A stretch of DNA of 64,000 nucleotides from an uncultured bacterium (GTDB taxonomy: Bacteria; Bacillota_I; Bacilli_A; RFN20; CAG-826). Shown one piece after another: positions 6,162 to 57,428 of the stretch (positions are counted from its first letter, which is position 1; each line of letters begins with the position of its first letter). The notes beneath the pieces are model-generated. The model saw only the letters and a list, made by a program, of their open reading frames with translations, was not told the DNA's origin and ran no database searches. The DNA lies in the NCBI GenBank assembly GCA_949291375.1, contig CASEVI010000003.1:78224-142223 (forward strand), written 5' to 3'. The position numbers and the translations under genes are program-made.

Positions 6162-6257
6162 TAAAAATCTAGAAATTGTTTTAAAAATAATTCAAATTCA
6201 TTACTTTTCTTAAAAAAACAAGTTAAATCAATAATATTTGATAAAATAACAAATAAA

Positions 6258-6292
6258 AAATTCGTAGGTTAAAAATATTTACCTACGAATTT
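6258..6292 (+). terminator. Intrinsic terminator of the ABC/FtsX operon
   Basis: Perfect 12-bp inverted repeat AAATTCGTAGGT / ACCTACGAATTT with an 11-base loop, 97 bases after the permease stop. Confidence 0.75.
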
Positions 6293-6406
6293 AATGAGTT
6301 GTTATAATTTTAAAATTAATCAATAATTCCTTTTTTATAATTAATATTAAAGGCTTTAGAAAGTTCTTTTAAATTATCGCTGCTAATTGATTGAACAATA
6401 TGTTTA

Positions 6407-6481
6407 TCACATATTTTCATATGTGTTTTTCATATTCAAAATTAATAAATTGTTTTTAATGTTTTCTATCATTGTATTCAT
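6407..6481 (-). pseudogene. Remnant of IS21 helper gene istB (N-terminus only)
   Basis: A 24-codon frame starting MNTMIENIKNN whose ATG overlaps the TGA of the istA remnant as ATGA. That overlap is the standard istA/istB arrangement of IS21 elements. The frame is cut by TGA after ENM. The rest of the ATPase is absent, though an open stretch in another frame (DKHIVQSISSDNLKELSKAF) may be residual. Identification rests mainly on position. Confidence 0.4.
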
Positions 6482-7088
6482 ACATTATAATCTCCTAAAT
6501 TTATATTATGAAAATCAAGATTGCTCTCAATTAATGTGTTATCTTCGCTATAATCACTATTTTCAAGTATTGTTTTATAATGTTTTGAATCTATTATCAT
6601 TTTATTTTTTTCTATAGAAATCGGATGGGAAGCTATTTTTTCACTATTACAATAAATATTCAAAATAGTTCCAATTTTTGTAACAACAACGTTTCTTTCT
6701 ATAAAGTTTGAAGGTACAGAATATTTGCTATTTTCAAATGAAATTAAACAATCTTTCCAACTTTTCTTACTGATGTTTTATCGATTATATATATTCGGCT
6801 TATTGGATTTAATTTTTCTAATTTAAATCTAACTTTTGGAATTTCATTTGTTGTTGAATGAATTTTCGAATTTACTTTTTCACACCAATCATAAGCTTCT
6901 TTATTTAAATCATCTAAATCCCTAAACTTTCTATCAACCATAAAGTTTTCTTGAACATATCTTACTGTTCTTTCGACTTTGCCTTTAGTTTGACCTCTAT
7001 AAGGTTTGCATAAAACCGTTTTAAAACCAAAAAAGTCCGCAAAATCCTCAAATTCTTGATTTAATTTAGAATCTTTTTGTTTTAACAA
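6478..7088 (-). pseudogene. Remnant of IS21-family transposase istA (C-terminal part, frameshifted)
   Basis: The upstream piece (6744-7088) contains the diagnostic IS21 stretch GFKTVLCKPYRGQTKGKVER, the last part of the DDE integrase core. That frame stops after VRKVGKIV. A single-base frame change near 6745-6755 restores DCLISFENSKYSVPSNF, continuing to NIYCNSEKIASHP and ending in GDYNV, which resembles the family's C-terminal beta domain. The N-terminal HTH and the first catalytic Asp residues are missing, so the copy is dead. Confidence 0.75.
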
Positions 7089-7208
7089 TCTTTTAATAAC
7101 AACTTGTTAATTGCCAAAATTTCTAAAGATAGTTTATTCAAATTGTTTAAAGAAATTTACTCATTCAAAGTGAGTATTTTTTTATTAAAATTTAAATGAA
7201 AGAAAAAA

Positions 7209-7249
7209 AGCTAAAGTTATTTCTGATTGGAGTCAACTTAACTTTAGCT
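7209..7249. repeat. 11-bp perfect inverted repeat near IS remnant
   Basis: AGCTAAAGTTA (7209-7219) and TAACTTTAGCT (7239-7249) with a 19-base spacer. It lies between the IS21 remnant and the truncated zinc-ribbon gene. It could be a decayed IS end or a stem-loop in a leader; no T-run follows directly. Confidence 0.5.
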
Positions 7250-7268
7250 ACCTATTTGAGGCAAATTA

Positions 7269-7500
7269 ATGATATTAATTTTAACGGAACTTTTCAATAA
7301 AACAGATGAAAATTTTATAAAAATTTATGAAGAAAATATTGTTAATTGTTTCCATAAATTAATACAAAAACGCTCATATTGTCATTCTGCTGAAATTGTT
7401 GGTAATGGTTATTATTCGAGATGTCTTTTTTATAACGATACAATTAATTACGTAGATATTTATCGAGTAAAATGCAAAAATTGTGGCAAATCAGTATTGA
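7269..7500 (+). pseudogene. Truncated zinc-ribbon (DUF6431-like) mobile-element protein
   Basis: About 77 codons from ATG 7269 read up to the 3' edge of the tRNA-Thr gene. The visible part contains YCHSAEIVGNGYYSR and YRVKCKNCGKS, i.e. CxH...CxxC preceding where DUF6431/ISL3-type transposase-associated proteins continue with HALLP. From 7501 the frame runs into the tRNA gene, so the product is truncated at the junction. It is probably the broken 5' end of a transposase-like gene; family assignment is by resemblance only. Confidence 0.45.
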
Positions 7501-7576
7501 TGGTGCCGGCTAAAGGATTCGAACCTTCGACCTACGCGTTACGAGTGCGTTGCTCTACCACCTAAGCTAAGCCGGC
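7501..7576 (-). tRNA. tRNA-Thr (anticodon CGT)
   Basis: Cloverleaf with acceptor GCCGGCT paired to AGCCGGC, encoded CCA, T-loop GGTTCGAATCC and anticodon loop CTCGTAA. Confidence 0.9.
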
Positions 7577-7664
7577 AAGTAGAGATATTATAAATTAAAA
7601 TAGAATAAAGTTAAAATAAAACTTGATTTAACAATCTTTCAATGGTATATTATTTAAGCACGTT

Positions 7665-7740
7665 GGGTGTTTAGCTCAGCTGGGAGAGCATCTGTTTGAC
7701 GTACAGAAGGTCATAGGTTCGATCCCTATAGCACCCACCA
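7665..7740 (+). tRNA. tRNA-Val (anticodon GAC)
   Basis: Acceptor GGGTGTT, D-arm TTAGCTCAGCTGGGAGAGC, anticodon loop TTGACGT, T-arm ATAGGTTCGATCCCTAT, encoded CCA. A terminator follows. Confidence 0.92.
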
Positions 7741-7753
7741 AATTTAAAGATAT

Positions 7754-7777
7754 AGCCGACTAATGTCGGTTTTTTTA
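7754..7777 (+). terminator. Terminator of tRNA-Val
   Basis: Stem CCGAC/GTCGG with a TAAT loop and a following run of seven T. Confidence 0.8.
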
Positions 7778-7798
7778 AAACAAAAAAGAGAAATAAGA

Positions 7799-8614
7799 TT
7801 ATTCTTCTTTCTCTTTTTTAATATATTTAATATATTCCATTTGTTTATATGAAGATGATGCTTCAACCATCTCTTTATAAGTTTCATTTCTTAAATATTC
7901 TTTATTTTCTTTAATTTCATATCCTTCTTTAGGAAGAATTGGTTTACAAATTATAACTACTTTTCTTGGTTTTTTATTTTTATTCTTTCTTTCTTTAAAT
8001 GTAGTTACTATTGGAAGAATAGGAGCATTATATTTTGCAGGATAATGAAATGCGGCACTTTTAAACGGTCTAATTTTAGTATAAAAAGGCCAAATATGAG
8101 CTTCAGGGAATATTAAAATATGTTCTCTTTTTTTCTTTAAATAATATTCTATCCCTTTCATCATTTTAGCTTGATTTAAAAATGTAGTAGCTAAAGGAAT
8201 ATAGCCGAGTTGACGAGTAAAAAAAGTTAATAATTTTGAACTTAAAATATTAGGATTAGCAACTACATTAACTCTTTTTCTGTTTATAATTAAACATTGA
8301 ATATAGAAAGCATCTTCATTAGAAACATGATTAGCATAAATAAAACCTCCGGTTTTATTTATTTTTAAAATCTTATAATATTCTTTTAAATTTTCTTTAC
8401 CCTTAACTTTCATCCCATTAAAAAGACTATATCCACCTAAAATAGGTTTAGCAAAACACCAATAAAGAATATTACCAAAAGTTTTTTCAAATAAGTTTCT
8501 TTTATATTTATATTTATCATTAACTTCGATTTTATTTAAATCAATGTTTCCAAAATCATCATTTAATTCATCGCTATAATAAATGACTCTTTTATCTTCT
8601 TTTCTTATTTTCAT
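7799..8614 (-). CDS. 1-acyl-glycerol-3-phosphate acyltransferase-like protein (PlsC family)
   Basis: Membrane-associated lysophospholipid acyltransferase of the PlsC/LPLAT fold (271 residues). The catalytic HX4D motif reads NHVSNEDAF. The substrate-phosphate motif reads FPEAHIWP in place of the usual FPEG. A hydrophobic segment precedes the catalytic block. Its start overlaps the end of the glycosyltransferase gene by 23 bases, so the two form an operon and may build one glycolipid. Whether it acts in phosphatidic acid synthesis or modifies a glycolipid cannot be decided. Confidence 0.85.
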   Translation of the reverse strand: MKIRKEDKRVIYYSDELNDDFGNIDLNKIEVNDKYKYKRNLFEKTFGNILYWCFAKPILGGYSLFNGMKVKGKENLKEYYKILKINKTGGFIYANHVSNEDAFYIQCLIINRKRVNVVANPNILSSKLLTFFTRQLGYIPLATTFLNQAKMMKGIEYYLKKKREHILIFPEAHIWPFYTKIRPFKSAAFHYPAKYNAPILPIVTTFKERKNKNKKPRKVVIICKPILPKEGYEIKENKEYLRNETYKEMVEASSSYKQMEYIKYIKKEKEE

Positions 8615-9962
8615 TTTTAATATTCTCTAAAGCCTCCTTATTAGTAATAATACCATCATGTTTAATTTTATCCCAACTAACTCTTTTATATTTATGGAAT
8701 AATCCATCTAAAAACGCAAAAACAAAGTCAGCAAAGAAAAATAAATATGAGAATATAACTTTAATTTGTAATCCTACACTAAATTTTAAATATTTATTTG
8801 AAATAACAAAAGTAATAAACGCGACTAATCCAACAAAAATCCAAAGTATAAAGAAATAAACTAAAACCCAAATAAACATACTTAAAGAAATAAGTTCTAC
8901 TCTAAATACTTCAAAAAAGGCACTAAAAACTAAAGAAGCAATAAAAAAACCTAAAGATATTAAGAAAGCTAAAACTAATAATCCAACTATTACTACAAGT
9001 GGATAAATCGAAACATTAAATTCAAAAAGAGAGGTATTTTGTCTTCCTTTTTTTAAAGCATGATAATTAGGATTATTTTTCTTTTTATATTTTTTATCAT
9101 TAGCAAAATAGCCCCAAACCCATCTTATATGTTGCTTATGAACCACTTTTAAAGTAGTAGCTTGTTCATCATAATATTGAGCAATTGGATAATATTTCAT
9201 TGGAACATTGTGATAATAACAATATTTAGTTAACTCCACATCTTCAGTCATTCCATTAAATATCCATCCTCCTTCGTTATCAATAATATCAAAATCAACA
9301 AAATAGCCTGTTCCTGTTAAGGTCATTTTTTTAAATAAAATACTTCTTCCGTTAGATGTAAATTGATTCATATAAGCAAAAAGTGTTGCACTACATGCGC
9401 TAATCCAATTTGCAGAAGAATTAGTAAAATTACGATAGCCCATACCTACTTTAAATCCGGCGTTTTTAACATCGTTCATTAAATCAATATAATCACTTTT
9501 TGCAACATTATCCGCATCAAAAACAATAAATGCATCATAATAAAGATTATTTTCTTTAATATATTTATAAGCTTCATCAAGAGCGAAGCCTTTAGTTTTT
9601 TTATTAACTAAATCTTTCCTAATAATTACATTAAATTTATATTTTTTGGTTATTTTTACTGTTGGATCATCTTTAGATTCTACAATTACATAAACATCAA
9701 AATATTCACGAGGATATGTTTGATTTTTAAGCGATTCTAAAATGTGGCCAATAACTTGATCTTCATTTCTTGCCGGAACTAAAACAGCATACTTATAATA
9801 AACTTTACCTTTTGGTAATTTTTTATGTTTTTTTAATGATAAAACAAAGTATGCGAAAAAATACCAAAATAGGGAAAGAAATATAATTAAAGCTAATATA
9901 ACAGCAAGTAACAAAGCTTCGCCAGAACGAAGAAACCAACTTGCTAAATTTTCTGCATTCAT
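8592..9962 (-). CDS. Membrane glycosyltransferase, GT2 family
   Basis: Processive-type glycosyltransferase of 456 residues. An N-terminal membrane helix (about 14-40) precedes the GT-A domain with VLVPARNEDQVIGH, the DxD-like VFDADN, the acceptor motif TEDVE and the QxxRW motif QHIRW. Three to four C-terminal helices (about 320-430) give the BcsA/HasA-like topology. Known relatives make glycolipids or polysaccharides from UDP-sugars at the membrane. It is the first gene of the two-gene unit with the PlsC-like acyltransferase. Confidence 0.9.
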   Translation of the reverse strand: MNAENLASWFLRSGEALLLAVILALIIFLSLFWYFFAYFVLSLKKHKKLPKGKVYYKYAVLVPARNEDQVIGHILESLKNQTYPREYFDVYVIVESKDDPTVKITKKYKFNVIIRKDLVNKKTKGFALDEAYKYIKENNLYYDAFIVFDADNVAKSDYIDLMNDVKNAGFKVGMGYRNFTNSSANWISACSATLFAYMNQFTSNGRSILFKKMTLTGTGYFVDFDIIDNEGGWIFNGMTEDVELTKYCYYHNVPMKYYPIAQYYDEQATTLKVVHKQHIRWVWGYFANDKKYKKKNNPNYHALKKGRQNTSLFEFNVSIYPLVVIVGLLVLAFLISLGFFIASLVFSAFFEVFRVELISLSMFIWVLVYFFILWIFVGLVAFITFVISNKYLKFSVGLQIKVIFSYLFFFADFVFAFLDGLFHKYKRVSWDKIKHDGIITNKEALENIKNENKKRR

Positions 9963-13883: not shown

Positions 13884-14255
13884 TTAATGTGTGGTATTAT
13901 ATTTTTTTATTGCTTCAATAGTTTCATCGCTTACGACATGCTCTATTTTACACGCATCTTCTTCAGCAACTTCATTTTTAACACCTAATTTAATTAAAAA
14001 TTCAGTTAGTGTTATATGTCTGCTATAAATTTTATTGGCATATTCTTCTCCTTTTTTTAAAAGGATGATTGAATCATTGCTTAATATATCGATATAGCCT
14101 TTATTTTTTAAATTCTGCATAGCTCTAGAAACAGAAGCTCGAGAGAACCCCATTTTATTAGAAATATCTATAGCGTGAACATTTTGTTTTTCACTTTTTA
14201 AAATTAATATTGTTTCTAAATACATCTCTTCACTTTCGTTATAAATTTTGTTCAT
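13884..14255 (-). CDS. DtxR/MntR-family metal-dependent repressor
   Basis: A 123-residue transcription regulator with an N-terminal winged helix (EEMYLETILILKSEKQNVHA, then the recognition helix SRASVSRAMQNLKNKGYI). A dimerisation and metal-binding half contains EEDACKIEHVVSDE, where Cys, Glu and His sit at the positions of known metal ligands. It lacks the C-terminal SH3 domain, as MntR-type proteins do. It lies directly upstream of, and in line with, the feo operon, so Fe2+-dependent control of feo is the natural inference. Confidence 0.88.
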   Translation of the reverse strand: MNKIYNESEEMYLETILILKSEKQNVHAIDISNKMGFSRASVSRAMQNLKNKGYIDILSNDSIILLKKGEEYANKIYSRHITLTEFLIKLGVKNEVAEEDACKIEHVVSDETIEAIKKYNTTH

Positions 14256-14314: not shown

Positions 14315-15307
14315 TTAATTATTTCTTCTTTTAGCTAATCTTGCTAATTTATTATCTTTAACTTTTGTTAAGTTGTTGCCAACTATAATATTTAATATAA
14401 CAAAAATAATTATAAAAACAATAATAACTAAAGACATATAAGAAGGCGTAATAGTTAATCCAAAAAATTTATAATCAAAGCCAAAACTATTTTCTAAAGA
14501 GGAAATAAGCTCATTTCCGCCATTAATTCCATTTGTTGGATCTAAAACATAAGTTTTTAACTGATCAAAAGGTTTTAATAAAAAAGCGTATCTAAAAAGC
14601 CCACAGGCATGTGTTGGTGGTAAAAACATACATAAATTATTAACCCAAACAGGCAACATGCTCATTGGCATATAGGCGCCAATTAAAAAACCAATAGCTG
14701 TTGAAAATATGGCAATAATAGATGTTAAACTACTTTCTTTATTCATAAAAGAACAAATAAAAGTAGTCATAAGAGTTGCTGAAACAACGGAAAATACCAA
14801 AACAGCAAATATCGTTAAAAAGTCAGCAAAATTTAAAACAAATTCACCATTGGCAAATAAATAAATAAAGCAAATTAATACAAAAATAAAGTTTATACAA
14901 AAAGTAATAATAAAGTTCGCTAAAAAATATGAACCTATTAAAACAGGTCCTTTTACCGGAGAAGAAATAAAGTCTCTATTTATGCCTCTATCTTTATCAC
15001 GAACAAAAATATAATTTGTTTGTATTGAAACAGTTACAGAAGTAACTGCACAAATTCCGCTTAACATCCATGAATCAATAACAGTCTCTAAAATTTTAAT
15101 TAAAGTATTATTAGTTTTTAAATCTAAATCTTGAAGAATAGTTCTAACACTAGAAATTTCGAGTTCTCTTAAAAATAAAATATAAATTCCTAAAACTATA
15201 ACCGGAACAATTAATGTATAAAGAACCGTTATTTTCGAGCGAAAGAAAACAATTAAATGTCTTTTAGTTAAATTAAAAAATATATTTGCATTTCTTTTTT
15301 TATTCAT
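14315..15307 (-). CDS. ABC-2 type permease
   Basis: Membrane component of an exporter, partner of the fused ATPase encoded upstream. Six hydrophobic segments (near residues 25-45, 95-115, 140-165, 175-200, 210-230 and 295-320 of the product) and the ABC-2 motif region FISSPVKGPVLIGSY are visible. I take ATG 15307 (MNKKRNANIFF) as the start because GGTGAG precedes it and it overlaps the upstream stop in the usual coupled way. Relatives export drugs, lipids or polysaccharide; substrate unknown. Confidence 0.88.
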   Translation of the reverse strand: MNKKRNANIFFNLTKRHLIVFFRSKITVLYTLIVPVIVLGIYILFLRELEISSVRTILQDLDLKTNNTLIKILETVIDSWMLSGICAVTSVTVSIQTNYIFVRDKDRGINRDFISSPVKGPVLIGSYFLANFIITFCINFIFVLICFIYLFANGEFVLNFADFLTIFAVLVFSVVSATLMTTFICSFMNKESSLTSIIAIFSTAIGFLIGAYMPMSMLPVWVNNLCMFLPPTHACGLFRYAFLLKPFDQLKTYVLDPTNGINGGNELISSLENSFGFDYKFFGLTITPSYMSLVIIVFIIIFVILNIIVGNNLTKVKDNKLARLAKRRNN

Positions 15308-17084
15308 TATTCTCACCATTTTCAAAAACAATATTTTTACCAGTTACATTGAGGAACACGTCATCCATATTTCCTTTTAAAAGTTCAAAATCAGTAATAA
15401 AATTAGAATATTTTTCAATTAAGTCTTTCCCTTTTAATGGGGTATCAACAAAAATTTTATATGCCTTTTTGTCAAAATCATAAACAAAATTTTCACTATT
15501 TCCTTTTAAAATTTCTTCAAATTTATCATTTTTCTTTAAAAAAGCTAGAACATAATCGCTGCTATAAACATTCTTCAAATCATTAGGTGTTCCTTGAGCT
15601 ATTATTCTACCTTTATCCATTATAACAACATATGTTGCTTGATCAGCCTCTTCTAAATAATGAGTTGTTAAAAATACTGTCATTCCAGTTTTTTCTCTAA
15701 TTTCATCAATTAGCGTCCAAACATTTAAACGAGTTTTAGGGTCTAAACCAGTCGTTGGTTCATCTAAAATTAATAATTTTGGCTCATGTACCATGGCTCT
15801 AGCGATATCAACTCTTCTCTTTTGACCACCACTTAATTTTTTAACTTGTTGGTTTAAAATTGGCTCTAATTCCAGTAATTCAGTAATTCTTTTTAATTTT
15901 TCATTAGATTCTTTTTTAGTTAAAGAATAAAAAGATGTTCTAATTTTTAAATTTTCTAAAACCGTTAAATCGTTATCAAGAACACTATTTTGAAAAACAA
16001 TTCCGATTTCTTCTTTTATTAATTGATTTTCTTTGTCATTATCAATATCATGTCTACAAACAATAACACGTCCATTATCCTTCTTTAAAATTGAACAGAT
16101 TATATTAATTGTCGTTGATTTACCAGCACCATTAACACCTAAAAAAGCAAACAAACTTCCTTTTTTTACTTTAAAAGAAATATCGTTAACAGCTTTTAAA
16201 CTTCCATAACTTTTTCTTAAATGTTTTATTTCCAAAATAATATCATTCTCTTTAAAACTGCTTTCTATTTTTTTATATTCTTCAAAAATATCGTCAAATT
16301 CATAAATTTTTAAAGATTTATGAACTTTCTCGATTTGCCATTGCTTGATATTATAAACATGGAAAAAAGGAATCCATTTAATGCCTTTACAAAAATGTTT
16401 TATAACAGTATCTTTTTTTACATTTCTTTGTTCATTATATTTACCATCTAAATATAAAGCGTAGCCATGTTTTTTAGCGACGGAATTTAAAGCACTTTGA
16501 TCTAAAAAGAGAAAATGTTTAGTTTTTACTAAATCGAAAACCTCTTTAAAAAAATTAACCTCCCTTGCTTTTTTTAAATTTATAAATAATACGCCAGAAT
16601 TAAAATAATCTTTTCTTATCCAAAATTTCCCCATTTTATCTATAACAATACCTAAAACATAATTATCTATTTCATTCATAGTAAATAATTCTTCTAAAGA
16701 GTTATAAACCATAGTATCACTATCTAAATATAAGATTTTTTCTGGCAAAGAAGGAATTTCTCCAGCACAAAGTCTTAAAAGAGAATATGGAGTAAACCAA
16801 TTATCAAGTTTTTTAAAAGTATCATGATTTTTTAAAATAACTTCTTCTTTATCTAATAAATTAACCTTAGTATTTGAATTATAAACTTTTAATATTGTTT
16901 CGATTTTAGCAATATCTTCTTTTAAAATTGGTATATATTTAGAATTAATATCACTAAAATCAGCAGTTAAAATAAAAATATTAATATTAGAATTTTTATT
17001 TTTCATGACTAAGGATAGGCATGAAAGTAAAATGCCTTTTATTACGGCTCTGTTTCCAGCATATAAAACATTAATATCAACCAT
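15300..17084 (-). CDS. GT8 glycosyltransferase-ABC exporter ATPase fusion
   Basis: One uninterrupted 594-codon frame with two unrelated domains. Residues 1-270 are a GT8 (LgtC/GlgA-like galactosyl/glucosyl) transferase: INVLYAGN at the start, the metal site LYLDSDTMVYN, then NSGVLFINLKK, LDQSALN and KHFCKGIKWIP. Residues 283-590 are an ABC-2 exporter ATPase: Walker A LGVNGAGKSTT, LSGGQKRRVDIARA, LLILDEPTTGLDP, and a C-terminal DUF4162-like tail. The permease gene overlaps its end. I infer that sugar transfer and export of the product are linked. The fusion is unusual to me; a frameshift or assembly error is not needed to produce it. Confidence 0.85.
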   Translation of the reverse strand: MVDINVLYAGNRAVIKGILLSCLSLVMKNKNSNINIFILTADFSDINSKYIPILKEDIAKIETILKVYNSNTKVNLLDKEEVILKNHDTFKKLDNWFTPYSLLRLCAGEIPSLPEKILYLDSDTMVYNSLEELFTMNEIDNYVLGIVIDKMGKFWIRKDYFNSGVLFINLKKAREVNFFKEVFDLVKTKHFLFLDQSALNSVAKKHGYALYLDGKYNEQRNVKKDTVIKHFCKGIKWIPFFHVYNIKQWQIEKVHKSLKIYEFDDIFEEYKKIESSFKENDIILEIKHLRKSYGSLKAVNDISFKVKKGSLFAFLGVNGAGKSTTINIICSILKKDNGRVIVCRHDIDNDKENQLIKEEIGIVFQNSVLDNDLTVLENLKIRTSFYSLTKKESNEKLKRITELLELEPILNQQVKKLSGGQKRRVDIARAMVHEPKLLILDEPTTGLDPKTRLNVWTLIDEIREKTGMTVFLTTHYLEEADQATYVVIMDKGRIIAQGTPNDLKNVYSSDYVLAFLKKNDKFEEILKGNSENFVYDFDKKAYKIFVDTPLKGKDLIEKYSNFITDFELLKGNMDDVFLNVTGKNIVFENGENNE

Positions 17085-17685: not shown

Positions 17686-17760
17686 GCTTCCTTAGCCAAG
17701 TTGGTAAGGCAACTGACTGCAACTCAGTGACCAGTGGTTCAAATCCGCTAGGAAGCTCCA
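17686..17760 (+). tRNA. tRNA-Cys (anticodon GCA), integration target
   Basis: 75 nt, acceptor GCTTCCT/AGGAAGC, anticodon loop CTGCAAC, encoded CCA. Its last 20 bases plus one form the left attachment repeat of the 16.8-kb element; the same 21 bases recur at 34489-34509. The tRNA stays intact after integration. Confidence 0.93.
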
Positions 17761-17761
17761 A
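17741..17761. repeat. attL direct repeat
   Basis: 21-base sequence beginning AAATCCGCTAGG and ending AGCTCCAA, covering the T-arm end and acceptor of tRNA-Cys. It is identical to attR at 34489-34509. Confidence 0.9.
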
Positions 17762-17770
17762 TTTTCAAAT

Positions 17771-17796
17771 AACACGATAATTATCGTGTTTTTTTA
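17771..17796 (+). terminator. Terminator just inside the element's left end
   Basis: A perfect 20-bp palindrome (AACACGATAA/TTATCGTGTT) followed by T7. It ends tRNA-Cys transcription in the integrated state and also lies after the integrase stop on the other strand. It is supplied by the element, not the host. Confidence 0.8.
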
Positions 17797-17801
17797 ATAC
17801 C

Positions 17802-18905
17802 TTAATCATTGAAAATTGTATCAATTGTATCAAACGAAGAAAATTCCTCAGCAACTTTTTTCTTCTTTATAGGTAATATATGTCCATAAACTTCTTCAGT
17901 AACTCTACTTGAAGAATGTCCAACCCATGAAGAAATATATTTAACATCAACATTCTTATTAATTAAAAATGTAACACATGAATGTCTAAATTCATGTGGA
18001 GTTAAAGGATAATCTAATTGTGCTTTATCACTATATTTATTAATCAATCTTCTAATAGTCGATTCACCAATAACTTTATTTTTATAATCTTTTAAATTTA
18101 TTCTTTTTATAAAAATAAAATCATTCTTTTTTAAATTCTTTTCTTTAACAACTAAATCTTTTAATTCTTTTATATTACTAACATAAGGATAATATCTAAC
18201 TGATGAAGAAGTTTTAGTTGTTAAAATTTTTTGTCCTCTACTTCTTGTTTTATTTGTTAATTCTTTATAAATATAAACACGATCACTATAAAAATCTTCT
18301 ACCTTTAATGCTCTTAATTCACCAATTCTTAATCCATAATAAAATAAAAGAGAAAACAATAATCTTTCTTCATTTGTTTCTAAACAATTATAGAATTTTA
18401 AAAATTGTTCACCTGTCCAAATTCTTTTATTAATTCTTTTATTTACTCGATTATTTTTATAAACAAATAAAATATTAGAACTTTCTTTTAAACCATATAA
18501 ATTTAGAAAATTAATAAATGTTTGAGCTACAAAAATAAGTTTATGAATATCTTTATATGAAGAACTATTAATCTGATCACAAACAAAAGTTAAATAATTT
18601 CTAGATAAATTACTTATCTTCCTACCAACAAAATATTTTTTAATATGTTTATTAAAAACTGTCATATTTGTTGAAGAAGATGTTTCTTTATATCTTTTAA
18701 AAATATAATCATCATAAAGATTTAATAAATCATTTATTTCATAATCTTTTTGAACATCGCCATATGAAATATATAAATCTTTTTCACAAGCTTGGGCACT
18801 CTTTTTATCTAAAATAGTTTTACCCAAATATTTTCTGCGTAAAATTTGTCTACCATTTATACAAACTTTTACTATATACCTACCATTTTCTTTATAAATT
18901 GACAT
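17802..18905 (-). CDS. int: Tyrosine recombinase integrase
   Basis: Catalyses site-specific integration and excision at tRNA-Cys. The 367-residue protein has an N-terminal arm-binding region, a SAM-like core-binding domain, and the catalytic domain with Arg in YYGLRIGELRALK, HEFRHS (HxxR), and GHSSSRVTEEVYGHI carrying the second His and the nucleophile Tyr. It lies 40 bases inside attL and is separated from the main operon by a hairpin at 19020, so it probably has its own promoter in 18906-19019. Confidence 0.95.
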   Translation of the reverse strand: MSIYKENGRYIVKVCINGRQILRRKYLGKTILDKKSAQACEKDLYISYGDVQKDYEINDLLNLYDDYIFKRYKETSSSTNMTVFNKHIKKYFVGRKISNLSRNYLTFVCDQINSSSYKDIHKLIFVAQTFINFLNLYGLKESSNILFVYKNNRVNKRINKRIWTGEQFLKFYNCLETNEERLLFSLLFYYGLRIGELRALKVEDFYSDRVYIYKELTNKTRSRGQKILTTKTSSSVRYYPYVSNIKELKDLVVKEKNLKKNDFIFIKRINLKDYKNKVIGESTIRRLINKYSDKAQLDYPLTPHEFRHSCVTFLINKNVDVKYISSWVGHSSSRVTEEVYGHILPIKKKKVAEEFSSFDTIDTIFND

Positions 18906-19019
18906 AAAATAAAAAAATTAGTTTAATATAAATAACAGTATCTTAATTGCTCATCGCAACCGATAAAGGATGATAGTAACCTCGTTTAAAATTCTGAGAT
19001 GAATTATTAACTGGGATAA

Positions 19020-19045
19020 AATAGGTTCAAAATGAAGAACCTATT
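19020..19045. terminator. Hairpin between the main operon and integrase
   Basis: Perfect 9-bp stem AATAGGTTC/GAACCTATT with an 8-base loop. It overlaps the TAG stop of the last operon gene. T7 follows on the plus strand; on the minus strand the tail is only TTTAT-like, so termination of the operon may be partial. Confidence 0.6.
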
Positions 19046-19406
19046 TTTTTATTAAACTTTTTGGTTTTTTCAAACCTTTAGGTGCGTTCCTTAAATGATC
19101 ATAACTAATAACATGAGACTCTTTATAAATACCTGACCATCTTTTTGTTCCTAATTCATAAACCGAATAAGGAACAATTTTCCCATGCTTAGCCATTTCT
19201 AAAGCCTCTTCATCATATATCATTATATTTTTTCCACATTTATATAACGGATGTTCAAGAGATGTAATTGTTCTTACCCTTGCTATTTGTTTTTTACCGT
19301 TTTTCCAGATAACAATAACATTATGAGAACCTTTTGAATTTATTCCTAAAATTCTATTTGAAACACGATAAACTTTATTAAAATTAATAAATTTCCTCTT
19401 TTTCAT
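19041..19406 (-). CDS. Element protein of unknown function, basic
   Basis: 121 residues, strongly basic, no signal or membrane segment. Visible features are a small beta-rich core (KVYRVSNRILGINSKGSHN, VRTITSLEHP) and a tail KRWSGIYKESHVISYDHLR. Similar small proteins that pair VRTITSLE with WSG occur, as far as I recall, on other Firmicutes mobile elements. The stop is TAG, showing that TAG is a genuine stop in this element. Last gene of the main operon. Confidence 0.75.
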   Translation of the reverse strand: MKKRKFINFNKVYRVSNRILGINSKGSHNVIVIWKNGKKQIARVRTITSLEHPLYKCGKNIMIYDEEALEMAKHGKIVPYSVYELGTKRWSGIYKESHVISYDHLRNAPKGLKKPKSLIKK

Positions 19407-19417
19407 ACCGACACCTA

Positions 19418-19816
19418 CTAATCATTAAAAACACTTAATAAATCTTCATAATCATCATCCGGATTATCACATTCATCATTTGGATTCCATTTATCATATT
19501 TAGAACCATACACATATAAAATTAATGAAGCTTCAGGAACTTTATGTTTAAAAAAACTTTTTGAATATAAAGTTCTAAAGGATAAAACAATATCATCATA
19601 ATAATCAGATAAATCTTTATAATGTTCGACTTCAATCTCGCTATCATAACCAATTTTATTCCCATACCTATCTTTCTCTTTATAAAAAACTACTCTTATA
19701 ATATTTGAATAAAGAATTAATTTCTTATATTTAGAATAAAATTCTCTTATAGTAATTTTTTTATCTAATTTATTAAAAACATTATCTTTATAATCATTTA
19801 CTTTAAATTTATTCAT
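19418..19816 (-). CDS. Element protein of unknown function, acidic tail
   Basis: 132 residues, charged, predicted soluble. An N-terminal helical part (FNKLDKKITIREFYSKYKKL) leads to a beta-rich middle and an Asp-rich C-terminus (NPNDECDNPDDDYEDLLS). It begins 6 bases after the rep gene, so it may assist replication. No family recognised. Confidence 0.7.
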   Translation of the reverse strand: MNKFKVNDYKDNVFNKLDKKITIREFYSKYKKLILYSNIIRVVFYKEKDRYGNKIGYDSEIEVEHYKDLSDYYDDIVLSFRTLYSKSFFKHKVPEASLILYVYGSKYDKWNPNDECDNPDDDYEDLLSVFND

Positions 19817-19821
19817 ATCAT

Positions 19822-21048
19822 CTAGCTCAAATTATCATCAACAATAGTTCCAACAAGAGTTTCTATATAATCATCAGGAGTAGAACATCCATCAAGATTA
19901 TCATTTAAAAATGAAACCATTTCTTTAATAGATCCATAAGACAAATTTCCTAAATATTTATCTTTAGCATTATTAACAACAGATAAATCAGTATTTTCTA
20001 ATTTTTCCAAATCAGTAGATAATAAATAATTTATAAAATCATAAAAATTAGAAGGATTTGATAAATAAATAGTTTTTAAAGTTTTAGAAACACTTCTTTT
20101 TAACCAATTTGCTTTTTTTACAATCGTTTTTTCTAAATCATATTGGCATTTAATATCAATTCTATCTGAATCCTTTAATAATTTATCCCAGACATTCCGA
20201 TTTTTACTTCTACCAGCATCATTCTTATTTCTAGTTTCTTTAAACTCAACAATATTCCTTATTAATCCTTTGGCAACAACATCAAAATTCTTTTCATATA
20301 ATGAAATTAAAATTAAATCTTTAATCTCATCAGCAAATTTATCTTTAAATCTAGCTTCAATACGAGTCCAAGATTTTAGATTTAAAACTTTATAATTTTT
20401 TGATTCTCTTTCAGTCTTTTTATCATAAATTTGGAGTTGTCTAGATGACATACGACTTCCAAATGTTATAGAAAAAGATTTAAATTCATTTCCATCTTTT
20501 GAAAACATAATTACTGGAAAAGATTTACAAACCGAACAATATTCATGATTTATTGTTTTTCTAATTAATTTTTCATAATTTAAACAACCAGTAAAATCAT
20601 CATAAGCAATGTCAATTCTTTTCATTTTTCCAAAATTATGAGCAAACTCAAGAAGTTCAATCCAACTTCCACCAAGCTCTTCAAATTTCCTACAACCCTG
20701 ACCTTTTAATTCTAAATGAATTGTTTCACCTTGATTTGAAGAAGTTGTTTCACCACCATAAGAAATATATATAAATTCTTCATAACAAAGTGTATTTTTA
20801 TACCCATTATGTTGAGAGGAAATTGTATATTTATTTTTGTCAATCTTAAGAGCTAAAAATAACTTTTCCATCGTATCACTATCAAAAGAGAAATTTTCAT
20901 CGATAACCATCGAAAAATAATCGATACAAAAGTTTCGTAAATTCGCGGACACTAGGGGGGTATTACTCACCCCCCTAGTGTCAGAGGAATTCTCGACAAA
21001 TTTTGTCAACGAAACATTTAGATCTTTTAAACTATTATTCTTTTTCAT
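19822..21048 (-). CDS. Rolling-circle replication initiator (Rep_trans / RstA-like)
   Basis: Nicks the double-stranded origin and starts rolling-circle replication. The roughly 408-residue protein shows the Rep_trans (PF02486) order: FCIDYFSMVI near the start, the GxxG-type beta region, KRIDIAYDDFTG (metal-site region), RQLQIYDKKTERES with the candidate catalytic Tyr, and WTRIEARFKDKFA. ATG 21048 is preceded by GGAGGA at 8 bases and overlaps the ATPase stop by 14 bases. A 13-bp GC-rich hairpin lies within its 5' end, as in elements whose origin is internal to rep. The family serves pT181 plasmids, ICEBs1-type ICEs and RstA phages. Confidence 0.88.
   Translation of the reverse strand: MKKNNSLKDLNVSLTKFVENSSDTRGVSNTPLVSANLRNFCIDYFSMVIDENFSFDSDTMEKLFLALKIDKNKYTISSQHNGYKNTLCYEEFIYISYGGETTSSNQGETIHLELKGQGCRKFEELGGSWIELLEFAHNFGKMKRIDIAYDDFTGCLNYEKLIRKTINHEYCSVCKSFPVIMFSKDGNEFKSFSITFGSRMSSRQLQIYDKKTERESKNYKVLNLKSWTRIEARFKDKFADEIKDLILISLYEKNFDVVAKGLIRNIVEFKETRNKNDAGRSKNRNVWDKLLKDSDRIDIKCQYDLEKTIVKKANWLKRSVSKTLKTIYLSNPSNFYDFINYLLSTDLEKLENTDLSVVNNAKDKYLGNLSYGSIKEMVSFLNDNLDGCSTPDDYIETLVGTIVDDNLS
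20948..20982. other. Candidate double-strand origin / nick site hairpin
   Basis: Perfect 13-bp inverted repeat GACACTAGGGGGG / CCCCCCTAGTGTC with loop TATTACTCA, inside the rep gene at codons about 22-34. Six consecutive G-C pairs are exceptional in this AT-rich DNA. Rep_trans/MOB-T elements such as ICEBs1 have C/G-run stems at their nick site near or in the initiator gene, so this is the best candidate origin. Confidence 0.7.
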
Positions 21049-23290
21049 CGAAAAAATCCTCCATCTTTTTACTAACATTTTTATCCTTTAATTTCTTCTT
21101 TCTAAATAACTTAAATAACCTGTCGTTAAAATAAGAATGTTGCTCTTCAAGTTCATCCAAAGAAGGATCTAAGGAAGAATATGTATCATCACTATAAATT
21201 CCTTTACTCGATTCACTTAGAACTTCTTTAAAAAGAGAATAATGTGAATCAGTTCTATAAGAATTAGCAAAAGTTTTTGCATTCATTAATGAATATATAA
21301 ATTCTTCACCAACATCTTCTTCTCTTCCTTTAACTAAAAGAGTCAATTTTTTATATGAATATTTATTTGTTAAACGATTATAGTATCTTTCAAAACAATA
21401 AGTCATTTTATTAAAAAGGTAATAGATAACGCCGATTCGATTTCTAGCTTCTTTCATTCTAATATCAACTTTTTTTCTTAAGCGAATAATAGCTCGACAG
21501 ATAATAGCTTCTAAATCCCGAAATTTTAAAGCACATTTATCTTCTACTTTTATTGCTCTAATTAAAGCAGTTGAAATATCTTTATATTTAGAAGCTAAAT
21601 CTCCAAATCGTTGCATATCTAAGAACATTTTTATAAATGGTTTGTAATTTAAAGTACAAACATGTCTAAGCATTTTTAAAATTAAATCAGTTCCATCATT
21701 TAATGGATTTGTTTCATCACTTTTTAAATCATAAATTTTATTTGTATTTTGATTACCTAAATCTTTTTCAGCTTCACTATAAGCAATTACACCAAAAGAA
21801 ATTACTGCTGTTTTTCCTTTATCATTATCCTTATTTTTTCCATAATACTTTTTAATTCTGATCTCATTTAAATCTAATTTATGAGAATAAGATTTAAAGT
21901 GATCATAATCTTTTTCATTAAGGAAAAAATATTGAGAAATATATTTAGGAAAATAACCATCCTTAATTACTTCTTCAACAATATGAATTGCATAATTTGA
22001 ATAGATAAAAGATTTTTGACAAGCAAAGTAGAAATAATTTTTAGCATATTCAATTAAAATCTTTCTAACTGAAATTTTATAAATTCCATTCCAATAATAA
22101 TCTTTATAAATTTTAAATTTATAACCAAAATAATATTCATTTTTTCTATTTGTTAAAGAATTATCAGCAACATTAAATCTTTTTTCTAACAATTCTTCTA
22201 TTTGAGCATGATTATAAATCATTCCTTTAAAAGATAAATAATCGATATATTTTTCTAATCTTACAAAATTAAAATAAGGTAAATAAGATCTATATAAATA
22301 AAGATTATCTTCTAATTCATATCGATAAATTTTGCTTTGCGTTAAAGCAAAATCCGTAATCATTGAAGTTTTATATCCTCCCATTAAACCATCGACTAAA
22401 TTAATCATTCCTAAATGGCGAGAACAAAAATCCATATTATTTCCTTCAAGTCTTAAAAGTCTTACCAATGCTCTAGCTTTTCTTCTTTTATCAATATATA
22501 GGTAAATAAGAACAATCCAGATAATTAATGGAACACTTATTAATATTGGATAAATTAGATAAATTGAAGAAAAAATAAATTTTAAAATTAAAATTAAATC
22601 AAAGGATGAAGAAAATAAGAAGAAATAAGAAAAGAAATCTAAAATAATAGAAATAACATTTATATAAAAAAGAATTAAAAAAATATAACTTGTTAAAAAT
22701 TTATGATCATTAATATATTCATAAAACTCTTTTATAAATATAAATACTGGATGAAAAACTTTATAATTAAATCTTTCTAATTTTAAATAATTATTCGTGT
22801 ATCCAATTTTAGATATGTCCAGAGGATTAAAGAAAATTGATGAAAAAATAAGCTTCAAAGAAAAGATTAAAATAATCAATAAAACTAATAAATTTGCATA
22901 AGATAAAACATTTAATAATAATCCAAAATAATTAATAAACGATTCTAAATTAAAAACAATAAATATCCAATTTTTTAAATATTCAATAATTAATTCAATA
23001 TTAAAAGGCAATATAAATTTAGGAATGGCATCTAGCACTGGTGAACTAGATACCACTCCTAAATTTATATCAACAATTAAATCAAAAGTTGTATAAACAC
23101 TATTTCCATCCATCTTAAAAATAGATAAAAAATAATTTTTAATTGATTCAAAAAGGAATAAAAAAGAAAAACCAATCCTGTAAAAAGAGGAAAAAGAAAA
23201 AATGGATCCTAAAATCAAAATCAAAAGAAGGATAAAAATAGCTAATAATAAATATTTTTTATTTTTAATAAAATTAACGATTGACTTCAT
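21035..23290 (-). CDS. Zot/pI-like morphogenesis ATPase with polytopic N-terminus
   Basis: A 751-residue membrane ATPase. The N-terminal 270 residues carry about five to six hydrophobic helices (near 14-40, 105-150, 190-225, 230-270). The P-loop variant GLMGGYKTS at about 308 opens the nucleotide domain, a Walker B-like strand reads TAVISFGVIAYSEAEKD, and LRHVCTLNYKPF...DMQRFGDLASKY matches the LRH...Q(R)xxDL sensor region typical of Zot/pI. The C-terminal 200 residues are charged and cytoplasmic. Filamentous phages use pI to extrude virions. An FtsK/VirD4-type coupling ATPase is the alternative, but those keep a canonical GxxGxGK[ST] and have fewer helices. It overlaps its neighbours on both sides. 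Confidence 0.6.
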   Translation of the reverse strand: MKSIVNFIKNKKYLLLAIFILLLILILGSIFSFSSFYRIGFSFLFLFESIKNYFLSIFKMDGNSVYTTFDLIVDINLGVVSSSPVLDAIPKFILPFNIELIIEYLKNWIFIVFNLESFINYFGLLLNVLSYANLLVLLIILIFSLKLIFSSIFFNPLDISKIGYTNNYLKLERFNYKVFHPVFIFIKEFYEYINDHKFLTSYIFLILFYINVISIILDFFSYFFLFSSSFDLILILKFIFSSIYLIYPILISVPLIIWIVLIYLYIDKRRKARALVRLLRLEGNNMDFCSRHLGMINLVDGLMGGYKTSMITDFALTQSKIYRYELEDNLYLYRSYLPYFNFVRLEKYIDYLSFKGMIYNHAQIEELLEKRFNVADNSLTNRKNEYYFGYKFKIYKDYYWNGIYKISVRKILIEYAKNYFYFACQKSFIYSNYAIHIVEEVIKDGYFPKYISQYFFLNEKDYDHFKSYSHKLDLNEIRIKKYYGKNKDNDKGKTAVISFGVIAYSEAEKDLGNQNTNKIYDLKSDETNPLNDGTDLILKMLRHVCTLNYKPFIKMFLDMQRFGDLASKYKDISTALIRAIKVEDKCALKFRDLEAIICRAIIRLRKKVDIRMKEARNRIGVIYYLFNKMTYCFERYYNRLTNKYSYKKLTLLVKGREEDVGEEFIYSLMNAKTFANSYRTDSHYSLFKEVLSESSKGIYSDDTYSSLDPSLDELEEQHSYFNDRLFKLFRKKKLKDKNVSKKMEDFFDEKE

Positions 23291-23612
23291 AAAAATAACA
23301 ATTTCCTTCTATAAACCATAATTTAGAACTATTAATAACGAAAAAATTAAAGTCTTTACTACTTATTTTTCCTTCTTCTAAAGTGAATAAAAATGTCGAT
23401 GAATTTTCTTTAGAATAATAAGAAGCTATTTCTTTATTAAAAAGAAAAACCATTGTTTCATCTTTATTCATATAATATTTATTTACTATTTCATCTAAAG
23501 AAACATGAATTCCAGAAGATAAATCGACTAGTGGCTTAATAAAATAAAAACCAATTATAAAAACTAAAATAATAGTTAAAATAATGAGTAAAAATTTATA
23601 TTTATCTTTCAT
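23274..23612 (-). CDS. Small membrane-anchored element protein
   Basis: 112 residues with an N-terminal anchor (about residues 6-27, FLLIILTIILVFIIGFYFI) and a short extracellular beta-rich domain. The end overlaps the ATPase start by 17 bases, so the two are translationally coupled and probably act together in the envelope. A minor virion or secretion-channel role is possible; no family recognised. Confidence 0.75.
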   Translation of the reverse strand: MKDKYKFLLIILTIILVFIIGFYFIKPLVDLSSGIHVSLDEIVNKYYMNKDETMVFLFNKEIASYYSKENSSTFLFTLEEGKISSKDFNFFVINSSKLWFIEGNCYFYEVNR

Positions 23613-23676
23613 TAAGCCACCAGTCCTTTAATTTGAAATAATTGATATTTATAGTTTTTTTTGCTAATATCTTTGT

Positions 23677-23751
23677 AGTAGGTGCCTAAATTTAAGGCTT
23701 AATCGCTATAATTTATTTATAGCCAAAGCTAAATAATTAGCTTTACCTACT
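23677..23751 (+). ncRNA. Cloverleaf-like structured element
   Basis: Within 75 bases four nested stems pair without mismatch: P1 AGTAGGT/ACCTACT (677-683 with 745-751), P2 GCCT/AGGC, P3 GCTATAA/TTATAGC, P4 AAAGCTAA/TTAGCTTT. On the plus strand T7 follows immediately. It fills the only sizeable gap in the middle of the operon and overlaps the next gene's stop. It could be a counter-transcribed regulatory RNA, a single-strand origin or a packaging signal; it has no tRNA consensus. Confidence 0.6.
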
Positions 23752-24039
23752 TTTTTTATTATTCATTAACCAATTATCAATTTCTTTTTTATCTCTATCT
23801 GTAAAATAAAATTTTCTTTTATTTGCTTTTACACCAGATTTATCTTTATTTAAATATTTTCTTACATATGTTTTTTTACCAAACTTATTTGGTTTTTCTA
23901 ATTCAATATACGAATCACCAGATGGTTTATGAGTTAAATCCATATTTTCCCATATTTTTCCATCATCATTAATTGTTACAGCAGTATGTTTTCTTCTTCT
24001 ATTAAAAAAGACATCCCGTTTTTTTGATCTTTTAGCCAT
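23743..24039 (-). CDS. Small basic element protein, type A
   Basis: 98 residues, very basic (KRSKKRDVFFNRRRKHTAVTI at the start) with a compact beta-rich body and FYFTDRDKKEIDNWL near the end. It has the same plan as the 102-residue product of 29876-30184: His-rich opening, a middle ELEKPN..KK..Y..R element and a terminal [YF]F.TD.D.K.I..[WY]L. Nucleic-acid binding is likely from charge alone. Confidence 0.72.
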   Translation of the reverse strand: MAKRSKKRDVFFNRRRKHTAVTINDDGKIWENMDLTHKPSGDSYIELEKPNKFGKKTYVRKYLNKDKSGVKANKRKFYFTDRDKKEIDNWLMNNKKSR

Positions 24040-24044
24040 AAACT

Positions 24045-25841
24045 TTATTTCCTTTTATTAGAAGATTTAGTTTTATATTTCTTCTTACCTTTAAATTTAG
24101 AAGCTATCCATTTAAAAGGTTTAACAAAAAGGAAATTAATAATGTCTTTAAAAGAAATACCTAATAAATTAAAAACAAAATTCAATAAAATAATTAAAAT
24201 TATAATCAACACTACACCAGCAACAATTTTCAAGAATTCAATTAACCCATAAAGAAAATCTTTACTAGGATTTTCTGGCTTTGTTGTATCAGAAACTATA
24301 TCTAATGGATTAGAAATAGCTGGAATAATCTTTTTATTTCCTTCTTTTTCAAATGTTAAAGAAATAATATCAAAATCTAAAAATATACTTTGTTTTGATA
24401 CATATCCATCTCTTCCAATCGCACTTAAATCACCATATCTATAATCTAATAATCCATAAGTAAAATAATCAGTTAATGAATACCTTAAAACATATGTTGA
24501 TTCATTATTTTTTGATGAATTTAATACAAAATCATTAAATTCATCAATATCATCTTCATCGATAAATATTTCATCACTATTTTTCTTAGAATCAACTTTT
24601 TCAATTAAAGAAACTTCTAATTCTTCATTTTTTCCAAAAACAGTATTCCAAAATCTATCCCAAGAAGAATTCCCTTCATAAATAAGAAGATTTTCATTAT
24701 CTAAAGAAGAAATATTTATTTGATTGTAGCCTTCTTTATGACCTTCATCTATACCATCAAATAAATCATTTGAAATTCCTTTATAATTAGATCCTAAATA
24801 ATAAGATTTATCATAATCATAAATATAATTTAATATTTCTTCAGAAGAAATTTCTTTTTCACCATTTTCACCACCATCAAATAAAATTGTTATTAAATTA
24901 TTCTTTTCAAATGGTAGAAATAAATCAGAAGCTTCAAATCCTGCACCCTCAAAAGTATAATATTCGGTATTTGTATTAATTTCACCTTGATAATCAAATA
25001 ATAATGCAAATTCTGGATGATTATCTTTAGTTGTTTTAACACCAACATAATCTTTTAAAGTTTCGTAAACATTTGATTTTATTACAACAATATCAGCTAA
25101 TCTATATTCATAGTATTCAGCATTAATATTTGTTAATTCACCATATTTATCTAAATAATCATTTGGAATAGAGAAATAAACAGAATTTAAATCTTTTTGC
25201 TTAAAATCACCTACATTATCATGAAAACGATAATAAGAAGAATGAACATCCAAATCCAAAGTTGTTAATTCTTCATATTTTCTAGATAATGTCGAAACAC
25301 TATTTCCATTTATTCCTTTAGCATATCCTTTATAGTAAGCTTCTTGACCTATTTTAAATTCAGTAGCATTTCTTTCGCCTTGCTTTAATAATTCAATTCC
25401 ACCGATTTTATAAATTCTTTCATTTTTATCTAATCTATCTAAAATAACTTTTTTATTTGTATTGTTTAAAACAACTTCAAACTTATAAACATTCTTCTCT
25501 TTTTCTAGAAACTTTAAACTATACTTTTGGTAGTAATCAATACTACCAAAAGATATAGATATTTTATTTAAAGATACGCCGCTAGTTAATTTAAATGATG
25601 ATGGCAATGCTAAATAAATTAATAAAGAAAATTTACTATCATCACCATAACAATATTCATAAAAATCAATTAAAGTTACATTAGAAACTAAATTAAAATC
25701 ATTTACATTAAACTCTGAATTATTAAAATCTTCACTAATTGAAGACGTTGATATTAATGGATCATAATTTTTAAAACCAATTAATCCAGTAGAATTAGCT
25801 AAAATAGTTAATACAATAAATCCTTTATTTAACCAAACCAT
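24045..25841 (-). CDS. Large extracellular protein with C-terminal membrane anchor
   Basis: About 598 residues with a hydrophobic N-terminal signal (MVWLNKGFIVLTILANSTG), a long Asn/Tyr/Asp-rich extracellular region, one strong membrane helix near 545-575 and a basic cytoplasmic tail (KFKGKKKYKTKSSNKRK). This topology matches filamentous-phage adsorption proteins (pIII type), which stay membrane-anchored by their C-terminus until release. ATG 25841 follows the upstream TAG directly, suggesting coupled translation. No domain was recognised, so the role is inferred from topology and place. Confidence 0.72.
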   Translation of the reverse strand: MVWLNKGFIVLTILANSTGLIGFKNYDPLISTSSISEDFNNSEFNVNDFNLVSNVTLIDFYEYCYGDDSKFSLLIYLALPSSFKLTSGVSLNKISISFGSIDYYQKYSLKFLEKEKNVYKFEVVLNNTNKKVILDRLDKNERIYKIGGIELLKQGERNATEFKIGQEAYYKGYAKGINGNSVSTLSRKYEELTTLDLDVHSSYYRFHDNVGDFKQKDLNSVYFSIPNDYLDKYGELTNINAEYYEYRLADIVVIKSNVYETLKDYVGVKTTKDNHPEFALLFDYQGEINTNTEYYTFEGAGFEASDLFLPFEKNNLITILFDGGENGEKEISSEEILNYIYDYDKSYYLGSNYKGISNDLFDGIDEGHKEGYNQINISSLDNENLLIYEGNSSWDRFWNTVFGKNEELEVSLIEKVDSKKNSDEIFIDEDDIDEFNDFVLNSSKNNESTYVLRYSLTDYFTYGLLDYRYGDLSAIGRDGYVSKQSIFLDFDIISLTFEKEGNKKIIPAISNPLDIVSDTTKPENPSKDFLYGLIEFLKIVAGVVLIIILIILLNFVFNLLGISFKDIINFLFVKPFKWIASKFKGKKKYKTKSSNKRK

Positions 25842-25842
25842 A

Positions 25843-26952
25843 CTAATTATCAAAATCCGATTTTGTCAAATCAAGGTAATCTCCTTTTTCAACTAAAACA
25901 TTTTGTTTAACAATTTCTAAAGTTTCAGGATTTTCCCAAAATTCAACTTTTTTATAGAATCCATCACCACCACATTGAATATTTGAACATTCAGCACAAT
26001 TTAAATAATCACTCCATTTCATTTCTAGACCACAGGCATGGCATAAGATTTGATAAAAATGATTATATTGACTTAAATCTTCATCTGGATTTTCAGGTTC
26101 TTCAATCTCATCGGCTTTTTCATAAATATATAAATCACAATGAGTTCCTTGAATTGAGGATAAATCATAATCAATTAATACATCTCTAGGAATAGTTTGA
26201 TCACTAGCCCAAACTGAAGATAAAACATATTGTAAGGTAACTGATGATGAAACATTTTTAACGACATAAGATTGTCCACCTAAATAACCATCATCATCGT
26301 TTTTATAATCAACATATAACAAAACACTTAAATCGAAATTTTTATTATCTTCCTCATCCTCTAATGGTTTTCCATTATATAAATAAACTCCAAAATTCAA
26401 CCCATCCATATATGAAGAAGAAAAATTTAAATTATAATCATTAAATTTTGTATATTTTTCTTTCAATAAATTGAAAGCATTCGTAATAGACAATTCATAA
26501 TCTAAAACATCGTTAATCGTATAAATTTGATCATGATTATAAGAACCATCTATTCCTTCATTTGACAAATAAACATCAACATTTATATCAAAAAATTTAG
26601 CTTCATCATCATTATTATTTTCATCTTCCTTTAAATAATAGAAATTAACAATTAAATCCTCTTTAATATTAATGTTCCAGGAAGTTATATCTTTTTTATA
26701 ATATTTATAACCTTCAATATTAATTTTATAATCACTAAGATTTAAAAGATAACCATCATCAACTTCAAAACTACTACCTAAATTCAAATCTATAACATCA
26801 TCTTTATAATAATTAATTGAAACATGATGTTTTTCCTTTACCTCTTCTTTAGGATTAGATAATTCATACATTCCATATCCCAAACCACCAATAGCTCCAA
26901 CACATAAAATTGAAGCTAATAAACCTAAAACTAATTTAATATTCTTTTTCAT
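25843..26952 (-). CDS. Secreted or anchored protein with C-terminal CHAC/CGGDG motif
   Basis: 369 residues with an N-terminal membrane segment (LVLGLLASILCVGAIGGLGY), an acidic beta-rich body and a Cys-rich C-terminus. The latter reads CHACGLEMKW then CAECSNIQCGGDG, four or more cysteines able to bind zinc or form disulfides. The same CHAC...CGGDG module ends the neighbouring protein encoded at 26961-28325. Probably extracellular and part of the element's surface or virion set. Confidence 0.72.
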   Translation of the reverse strand: MKKNIKLVLGLLASILCVGAIGGLGYGMYELSNPKEEVKEKHHVSINYYKDDVIDLNLGSSFEVDDGYLLNLSDYKINIEGYKYYKKDITSWNINIKEDLIVNFYYLKEDENNNDDEAKFFDINVDVYLSNEGIDGSYNHDQIYTINDVLDYELSITNAFNLLKEKYTKFNDYNLNFSSSYMDGLNFGVYLYNGKPLEDEEDNKNFDLSVLLYVDYKNDDDGYLGGQSYVVKNVSSSVTLQYVLSSVWASDQTIPRDVLIDYDLSSIQGTHCDLYIYEKADEIEEPENPDEDLSQYNHFYQILCHACGLEMKWSDYLNCAECSNIQCGGDGFYKKVEFWENPETLEIVKQNVLVEKGDYLDLTKSDFDN

Positions 26953-26960
26953 AATTTTAC

Positions 26961-28325: not shown

Positions 28326-28334
28326 ACATTTCAC

Positions 28335-57422: not shown

Positions 57423-57428
57423 AAAGGA

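Follow-up and report, generated by a model that had tools for sequence, protein, structure and literature searches.

MprF, the lysyl-phosphatidylglycerol synthase/flippase, consists of an aminoacyltransferase and a PF03706 flippase domain, so that a single chain both modifies a lipid and flips the product. In the synthesis and export of lipochitooligosaccharides (NodC-NodIJ), a glycosyltransferase gene adjoins those of a DrrA-like ATPase and an ABC-2 permease, and NodC itself is, as far as we know, not fused to the exporter ATPase. The placing of the GT2 enzyme NodC beside NodIJ-type exporters arose independently in two lineages (PMC4447401). For PF03706, the flippase domain of MprF, a general flippase role has been proposed (PMC5898192), and two operons that combine a glycosyltransferase with an MprF-like flippase, hexSDF (PMC10128005) and gpgSDF (PMC12713373), make glycolipids, the flippases being predicted and the flipping unproven; taken together, the cited papers show the flippase activity of PF03706 proteins only in part. 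Among exporters of the Drr type, DrrABC is needed for the mycobacterial lipid PDIM to reach the cell surface (PMC4183827).

Here, we describe a gene from a group of uncultured gut bacteria that joins a GT8 glycosyltransferase to an ABC-2 exporter ATPase and is followed by an overlapping permease gene (Table 1; the window is the whole analysed stretch of 64,000 nucleotides). Its two-step logic is similar to that of MprF, but the fused parts are a GT8 enzyme and an ABC ATPase, the permease is separate, and neither MprF domain was found by Pfam in the fusion or the permease. The likeness to HexSDF and GpgSDF lies in the pairing of a glycosyltransferase with a dedicated predicted flippase in one glycolipid operon (PMC10128005, PMC12713373); these systems, however, employ separate genes, enzymes of the MGDG-synthase type or of GT4, a deacetylase, and a PF03706-type flippase rather than an ABC exporter. 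NodC differs in being a GT2 and not a GT8 enzyme, and the NodI models fail here. The DrrAB daunorubicin exporters and the mycobacterial DrrABC share the ATPase type, the C-terminal domain and the ABC-2 permease, but they have no glycosyltransferase domain and the window ATPase falls under the TIGR01188 cut-off. LgtC, GlyE and WbbM share the GT8 fold and the DxD metal site, although these solved enzymes are without an ABC ATPase fusion. Each domain family is known by itself, while the libraries and literature searched describe neither the fusion of GT8 or GT2 to an ABC ATPase nor the glycosyltransferase-linked exporter subfamily: Pfam and NCBIfam contain no model for the combination of GT8 with ABC_tran, and no description of it was found in the literature searched (where most subscription journals fall outside coverage), in agreement with an earlier note on this DNA that knew of no standard family with this arrangement.

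Table 1. Positions of the module, its parts and other features in the window (residues are those of the fusion protein)
Feature	Position	Strand	Basis or remark
MntR/IdeR-like metal-dependent repressor	13884..14255	-	about 60 bp 3' of the permease, same direction
ABC-2 permease (ABC2_membrane, PF01061)	14315..15307	-	45.1 bits vs cut-off 26.9; ATG at 15307
GT8-ABC fusion gene, 594 aa	15300..17084	-	single frame, ATG start; both Pfam domains pass their cut-offs; shared by 17 genomes
GT8 glycosyltransferase domain, residues 1-276	16257..17084	-	Pfam, invariant catalytic positions, LgtC-like fold (Z 24.8)
Inter-domain linker, residues 277-281	16242..16256	-	predicted model: helix 264-276, strand from 282
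ATPase domain of the ABC-2 exporter, ending in a DrrA/ABCA-like C-terminal domain; residues 282-594	15300..16241	-	Pfam, drrA model, structure matches
Terminator-like stem downstream of the module	13895-13875		after the MntR-like gene
Terminator-like stem upstream of the fusion	17454-17435		after a tRNA
tRNA-adjacent integrative element	17686-29453
Tyrosine integrase of the element	17802-18905
Rolling-circle Rep_trans protein of the element	19822-21078
Five large ORFs of the element (751, 602, 369, 457, 372 aa)	21035-29453		no Pfam match
DUF3800-I RNA family match	57422-57553		70.8 bits; overlaps the start of ORF 57536-58306

The fusion gene and its permease

Both halves of the fusion and the permease have intact signatures. 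The claim of the earlier note that one continuous frame encodes a complete GT8 enzyme and a complete exporter ATPase holds, as both Pfam domains lie well above their cut-offs (Glyco_transf_8, PF01501, residues 6-229, 68.0 bits against a gathering cut-off of 24.3; ABC_tran, PF00005, residues 299-445, 124.8 bits against 25) and all of the motifs it quoted are there (LYLDSDT, in which D121/D123 form the DxD; GVNGAGKST, the Walker A; LSGGQKRR, the signature). It had placed the junction at about codons 265-290, and the predicted model puts it within that range, between the end of the C-terminal GT8 helix and the first ABC strand. Domain boundaries are approximate (the DrrA-like ABC-2 part covers about residues 282-584), the linker varies by about 10-13 residues in length between fusion members, and the whole-fusion model reaches a pTM of only 0.60, too low for a reading of how the two domains are oriented to each other.

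The GT8 domain was modelled with a pLDDT of 94 and has, by this prediction, a GT-A fold of the GT8 type. Its best structural match is LgtC (Z 24.8, 2.6 A, 236 residues), followed by UGGT, WbbM (Z 23.7) and GlyE, and the match to glycogenin is weaker (Z 19.6). The positions of note are D121/D123, N162, D195/Q196, NEQR 217-220 and K229/H230/F231; D121, D123, N162, D195, Q196 and H230, along with others, are invariant in 29 related GT8 sequences, and the DxD and KHF are kept even by the most divergent fusions. The latter come from genus g31 (three of the 17 fusion genomes), where the GT8 half has diverged strongly and several acceptor- and donor-side motifs are lost: at L196:2482-4245, L197:4016-5785 and L198:3278-5029 the fused GT8 retains DxD and KHF, whereas the YFN, DQ and NEQR motifs are gone. 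These fusions may have altered catalysis, a changed substrate or a binding-only role.

In the ATPase half, the Walker A, signature and Walker B motifs are invariant among the fusion relatives, and the structure matches include T. maritima TM_1403 (Z 29.3), human ABCA4 (Z 27.5 over 302 residues) and NosF. The best NCBIfam model is drrA (TIGR01188), which scores 258.8 bits, below its cut-off of 312.45; judged by this model, the window ATPase resembles DrrA ATPases and is not a member. The NodI models remain far below their cut-offs (TIGR01288, 163.8 against 424; NF010060, 184.6 against 521). The DrrA1-3_C C-terminal domain was found in the ATPases of relatives, and Pfam found in the ATPase no C-terminal carbohydrate-binding domain of the Wzt type (a domain present in part of the Wzt family). 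At residue 344 (window 16053-16055) the window protein has an arginine where a glycine is nearly invariant in other fusions (VCRHD vs VCGHD), and this arginine is absent from its nearest relatives.

The permease gene shares its first 8 bp with the end of the fusion gene and a Shine-Dalgarno-like GGTGAG lies directly 5' of its ATG, the layout that would be expected for translational coupling of the two. By its composition (PF00005 ATPase and PF01061 permease) the pair can be assigned to the ABC-2 exporter class. The MntR-like gene next to the permease is restricted to the nearest relatives (FeoA/FeoB genes come next) and lies outside the module, although in the window species it is possibly co-transcribed with it, as the terminator-like stems are placed upstream of the fusion and after the MntR-like gene (Table 1).

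Pairwise dN/dS values reveal purifying selection on the two halves (GT8, about 0.10-0.23; ABC, about 0.08-0.16). At the GT8/ATPase junction the fusion members have no start codon in common (the codon is TTG in the window and CTG, ATG, CTA or TTA in relatives), and an internal translation start yielding a free ATPase was accordingly rejected.

Distribution, separate-gene relatives and exchange of the glycosyltransferase

The full fusion, free of stops and 62-97% identical, is present in 8 of the 26 genomes of the window genus. At the family level, 17 genomes from six genera carry some version of it (g1, 8; g7, 3; g31, 3; and g13, g18 and g27), with identities of about 40-53% outside the window genus, and none was found beyond the family in a sample of 395 class and 392 phylum genomes. 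Because the flanking genes differ between lineages, the GT8-exporter module is self-contained. As an observation apart, genes for a MobA-like nucleotidyltransferase and a CofD-like protein lie upstream of the fusion in genus g7 (L050, L056, L059). The opposite strand there carries an ATP-grasp gene, and a related ATP-grasp gene also neighbours the standalone GT8 in L049.

A scan of public genomes recovered 80 GT8 relatives. In 14 Clostridia loci the GT8, the ATPase (about 60% identical to that of the window) and the permease are three consecutive separate genes, mostly with gaps or overlaps below 30 bp. The distance from GT8 to ATPase is between -92 and +24 bp (where overlaps are longest, the start codon may have been set too far upstream), and six loci have the ATPase in frame with the GT8 past its stop, at 3, 3, 3, 3, 6 and 24 bp; hence, little more than the loss of a stop codon would be needed for fusion. 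The earlier note had reasoned that relatives with two separate genes, together with a frameshift or deletion at the junction of this assembly, would refute the fusion: such relatives do exist, whereas the junction defect is not borne out, since 17 genomes have the two halves fused in frame.

In the ATPase and permease tree, in which some branches are long, the rows with a fused GT8 fall into two groups, and their placement in a single clade was rejected (AU p 0.00015). Either two or more fusions took place, or one fusion was followed by splitting and replacement; label counts cannot separate gain from loss. The GT8 tree, poorly resolved at depth, is consistent with a separate recruitment in Clostridia.

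With the permease as a search handle, we found sister exporters that are linked to a different glycosyltransferase. Five of them (G061, G062, G064, G003, G152) have a gene for a GT2 enzyme with transmembrane segments directly upstream, and in a sixth (G006) this gene is downstream. G002 (L010:184-2457; one genome only) encodes a protein of 757 aa in which a GT2 membrane glycosyltransferase is fused to an ATPase of the same type. The exchange can be followed within genus g27, where G149 and G150 have the order ATPase-permease-GT2 and G148 shows the same synteny with an N-terminal GT8 on the ATPase. By type these GT2 enzymes are processive synthases, and they match the EpsU, PgaC and NodC models weakly; the exporters they accompany are a nearer analogue of NodC-NodIJ than the window fusion is. 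All GT8- and GT2-linked exporters stand on one side of the ATPase-permease tree (support 99), where the single unlinked row is G026, a close exporter that no glycosyltransferase adjoins; the other side holds nine rows without GT8 or GT2. Separately, a more distant exporter of this type (G157) is directly preceded by a Gly_transf_sug gene that is apparently split into two ORFs (L205:4878-5602).

Lipid genes beside the exporter-less GT8 relatives

A gene for an MprF-type flippase (LPG_synthase_TM, PF03706) is present in 29 of the 54 exporter-less GT8 loci (adjacent and on the same strand in 17) and absent from the other 25, whereas it occurs at none of the 26 exporter-linked loci. The contrast (Fisher p 6e-7) is only indicative, as the loci are phylogenetically non-independent. 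It does not extend to whole genomes: 24 of the 26 genomes of the window genus have PF03706 elsewhere, irrespective of the fusion, and exclusion at the genome level was rejected. Acyltransferases of the PlsC type lie near GT8 in Anaeroplasmataceae, and in L075 and L076 a PlsC-GT8-GT2-PlsC cluster (about 5220-8781), without an exporter, is an apparent lipid glycosylation locus. The parsimonious reading of these neighbourhoods is that the GT8 enzyme makes a glycolipid, whose transport would fall to a PF03706 protein in some loci and to the ABC exporter in others.

Candidate functions of the module

We reason that the fusion and its permease form a self-contained module that glycosylates and exports a membrane lipid, a reading to which we give a probability of about one half. 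What has been observed is the fusion, its conservation and the selection acting on it, the linkage of GT8 and GT2 enzymes to one exporter subfamily, and the association of GT8 with PF03706 and PlsC; from these we infer the lipid acceptor, the addition of the sugar, the export of the glycosylated product and the stoichiometry. In this reading, the GT8 domain would take the sugar from a nucleotide-sugar donor and, with the help of a divalent metal, add it to a lipid at the cytoplasmic face; the ATPase joined to it would, with the permease of the next gene, flip or export the glycolipid. The expected complex would hold two GT8-ATPase chains and two permeases, with two sugar-adding sites per exporter, and the fusion would keep enzyme and exporter local and in a 1:1 ratio. 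The earlier note had suggested that sugar addition could be coupled to the export of a lipid or peptide; coupling to lipid export is the reading that best suits the genomic context, and the analysis turned up no evidence either way on a peptide.

The acceptor could instead be a lipid-linked or polymeric saccharide (a polyprenyl-phosphate sugar or a short glycan), with the exporter acting as a small Wzm/Wzt-like glycan exporter. The processive-type GT2 enzymes of the sister exporters, with their EpsU, PgaC and NodC resemblance, would suit this role, as would the structural closeness of the GT8 domain of WbbM, an O-antigen enzyme; yet no other glycan-assembly genes recur beside the module and the C-terminus of the ATPase is DrrA/ABCA-like, without the Wzt-type carbohydrate-binding domain, and we consider this alternative unlikely, though the strongest of those weighed.

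It is improbable that the module serves detoxification, with the GT8 enzyme inactivating an antibiotic or a host-derived toxic amphiphile and a drug-exporter-like ABC system expelling the conjugate. The ATPase is indeed nearest to a drug-resistance model (drrA), and the module is compact and patchily distributed; against this, purifying selection has preserved the GT8 half across long distances and its active site does not vary, the neighbours of its standalone relatives are lipid and not resistance genes, and the linked GT2 enzymes are not a drug-modifying class.

Glycosylation of the exporter itself (as in glycogenin), or gating of the ATPase through the sensing of a nucleotide sugar, seems more doubtful still. 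Glycogenin does belong to the GT8 family, and the motifs that the g31 fusions keep and lose would suit a binding or regulatory function in that genus. The same type of GT8 is, however, a separate gene in 14 operons and exporter-free in 54 loci, its fold is closer to LgtC, and its swap for an unrelated GT2 would be hard to explain by self-glycosylation; the self-glycosylating exporter offered as an example in the earlier note thus finds no support, given also the flippase and acyltransferase genes beside the standalone relatives.

An assembly artefact or a chance read-through joining two genes, which the separate-gene relatives (some with an in-frame ATPase 3-24 bp past the GT8 stop) might suggest, is negligible and assembly error was rejected, since the fusion is conserved in frame in 17 genomes, down to 62% identity in the genus and about 40-53% outside it, with no conserved internal start.

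Returning to the glycosylation and export of a membrane lipid, we tentatively propose that the GT8 and GT2 systems may represent an undescribed class of ATP-driven synthase-exporters, in which unrelated glycosyltransferases were independently joined to the ATPase of one ABC-2 subfamily, so that glycolipid synthesis and translocation take place in one complex. If true, this class would be the ABC-powered counterpart of MprF. The exchange of GT8 for GT2 on one exporter, each with its fusion, provides natural pairs for learning what the exporter recognizes, and for annotation the standalone genes may act as a marker, as GT8 genes of this kind probably have a part in lipid metabolism in gut Clostridia and Anaeroplasmataceae. 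The translocation of newly synthesized glycolipids in bacteria is poorly understood, and for many of them the flippase is a prediction or has yet to be named; here, the fusion points to an enzyme together with the transporter of the same product and reduces the question to two genes.
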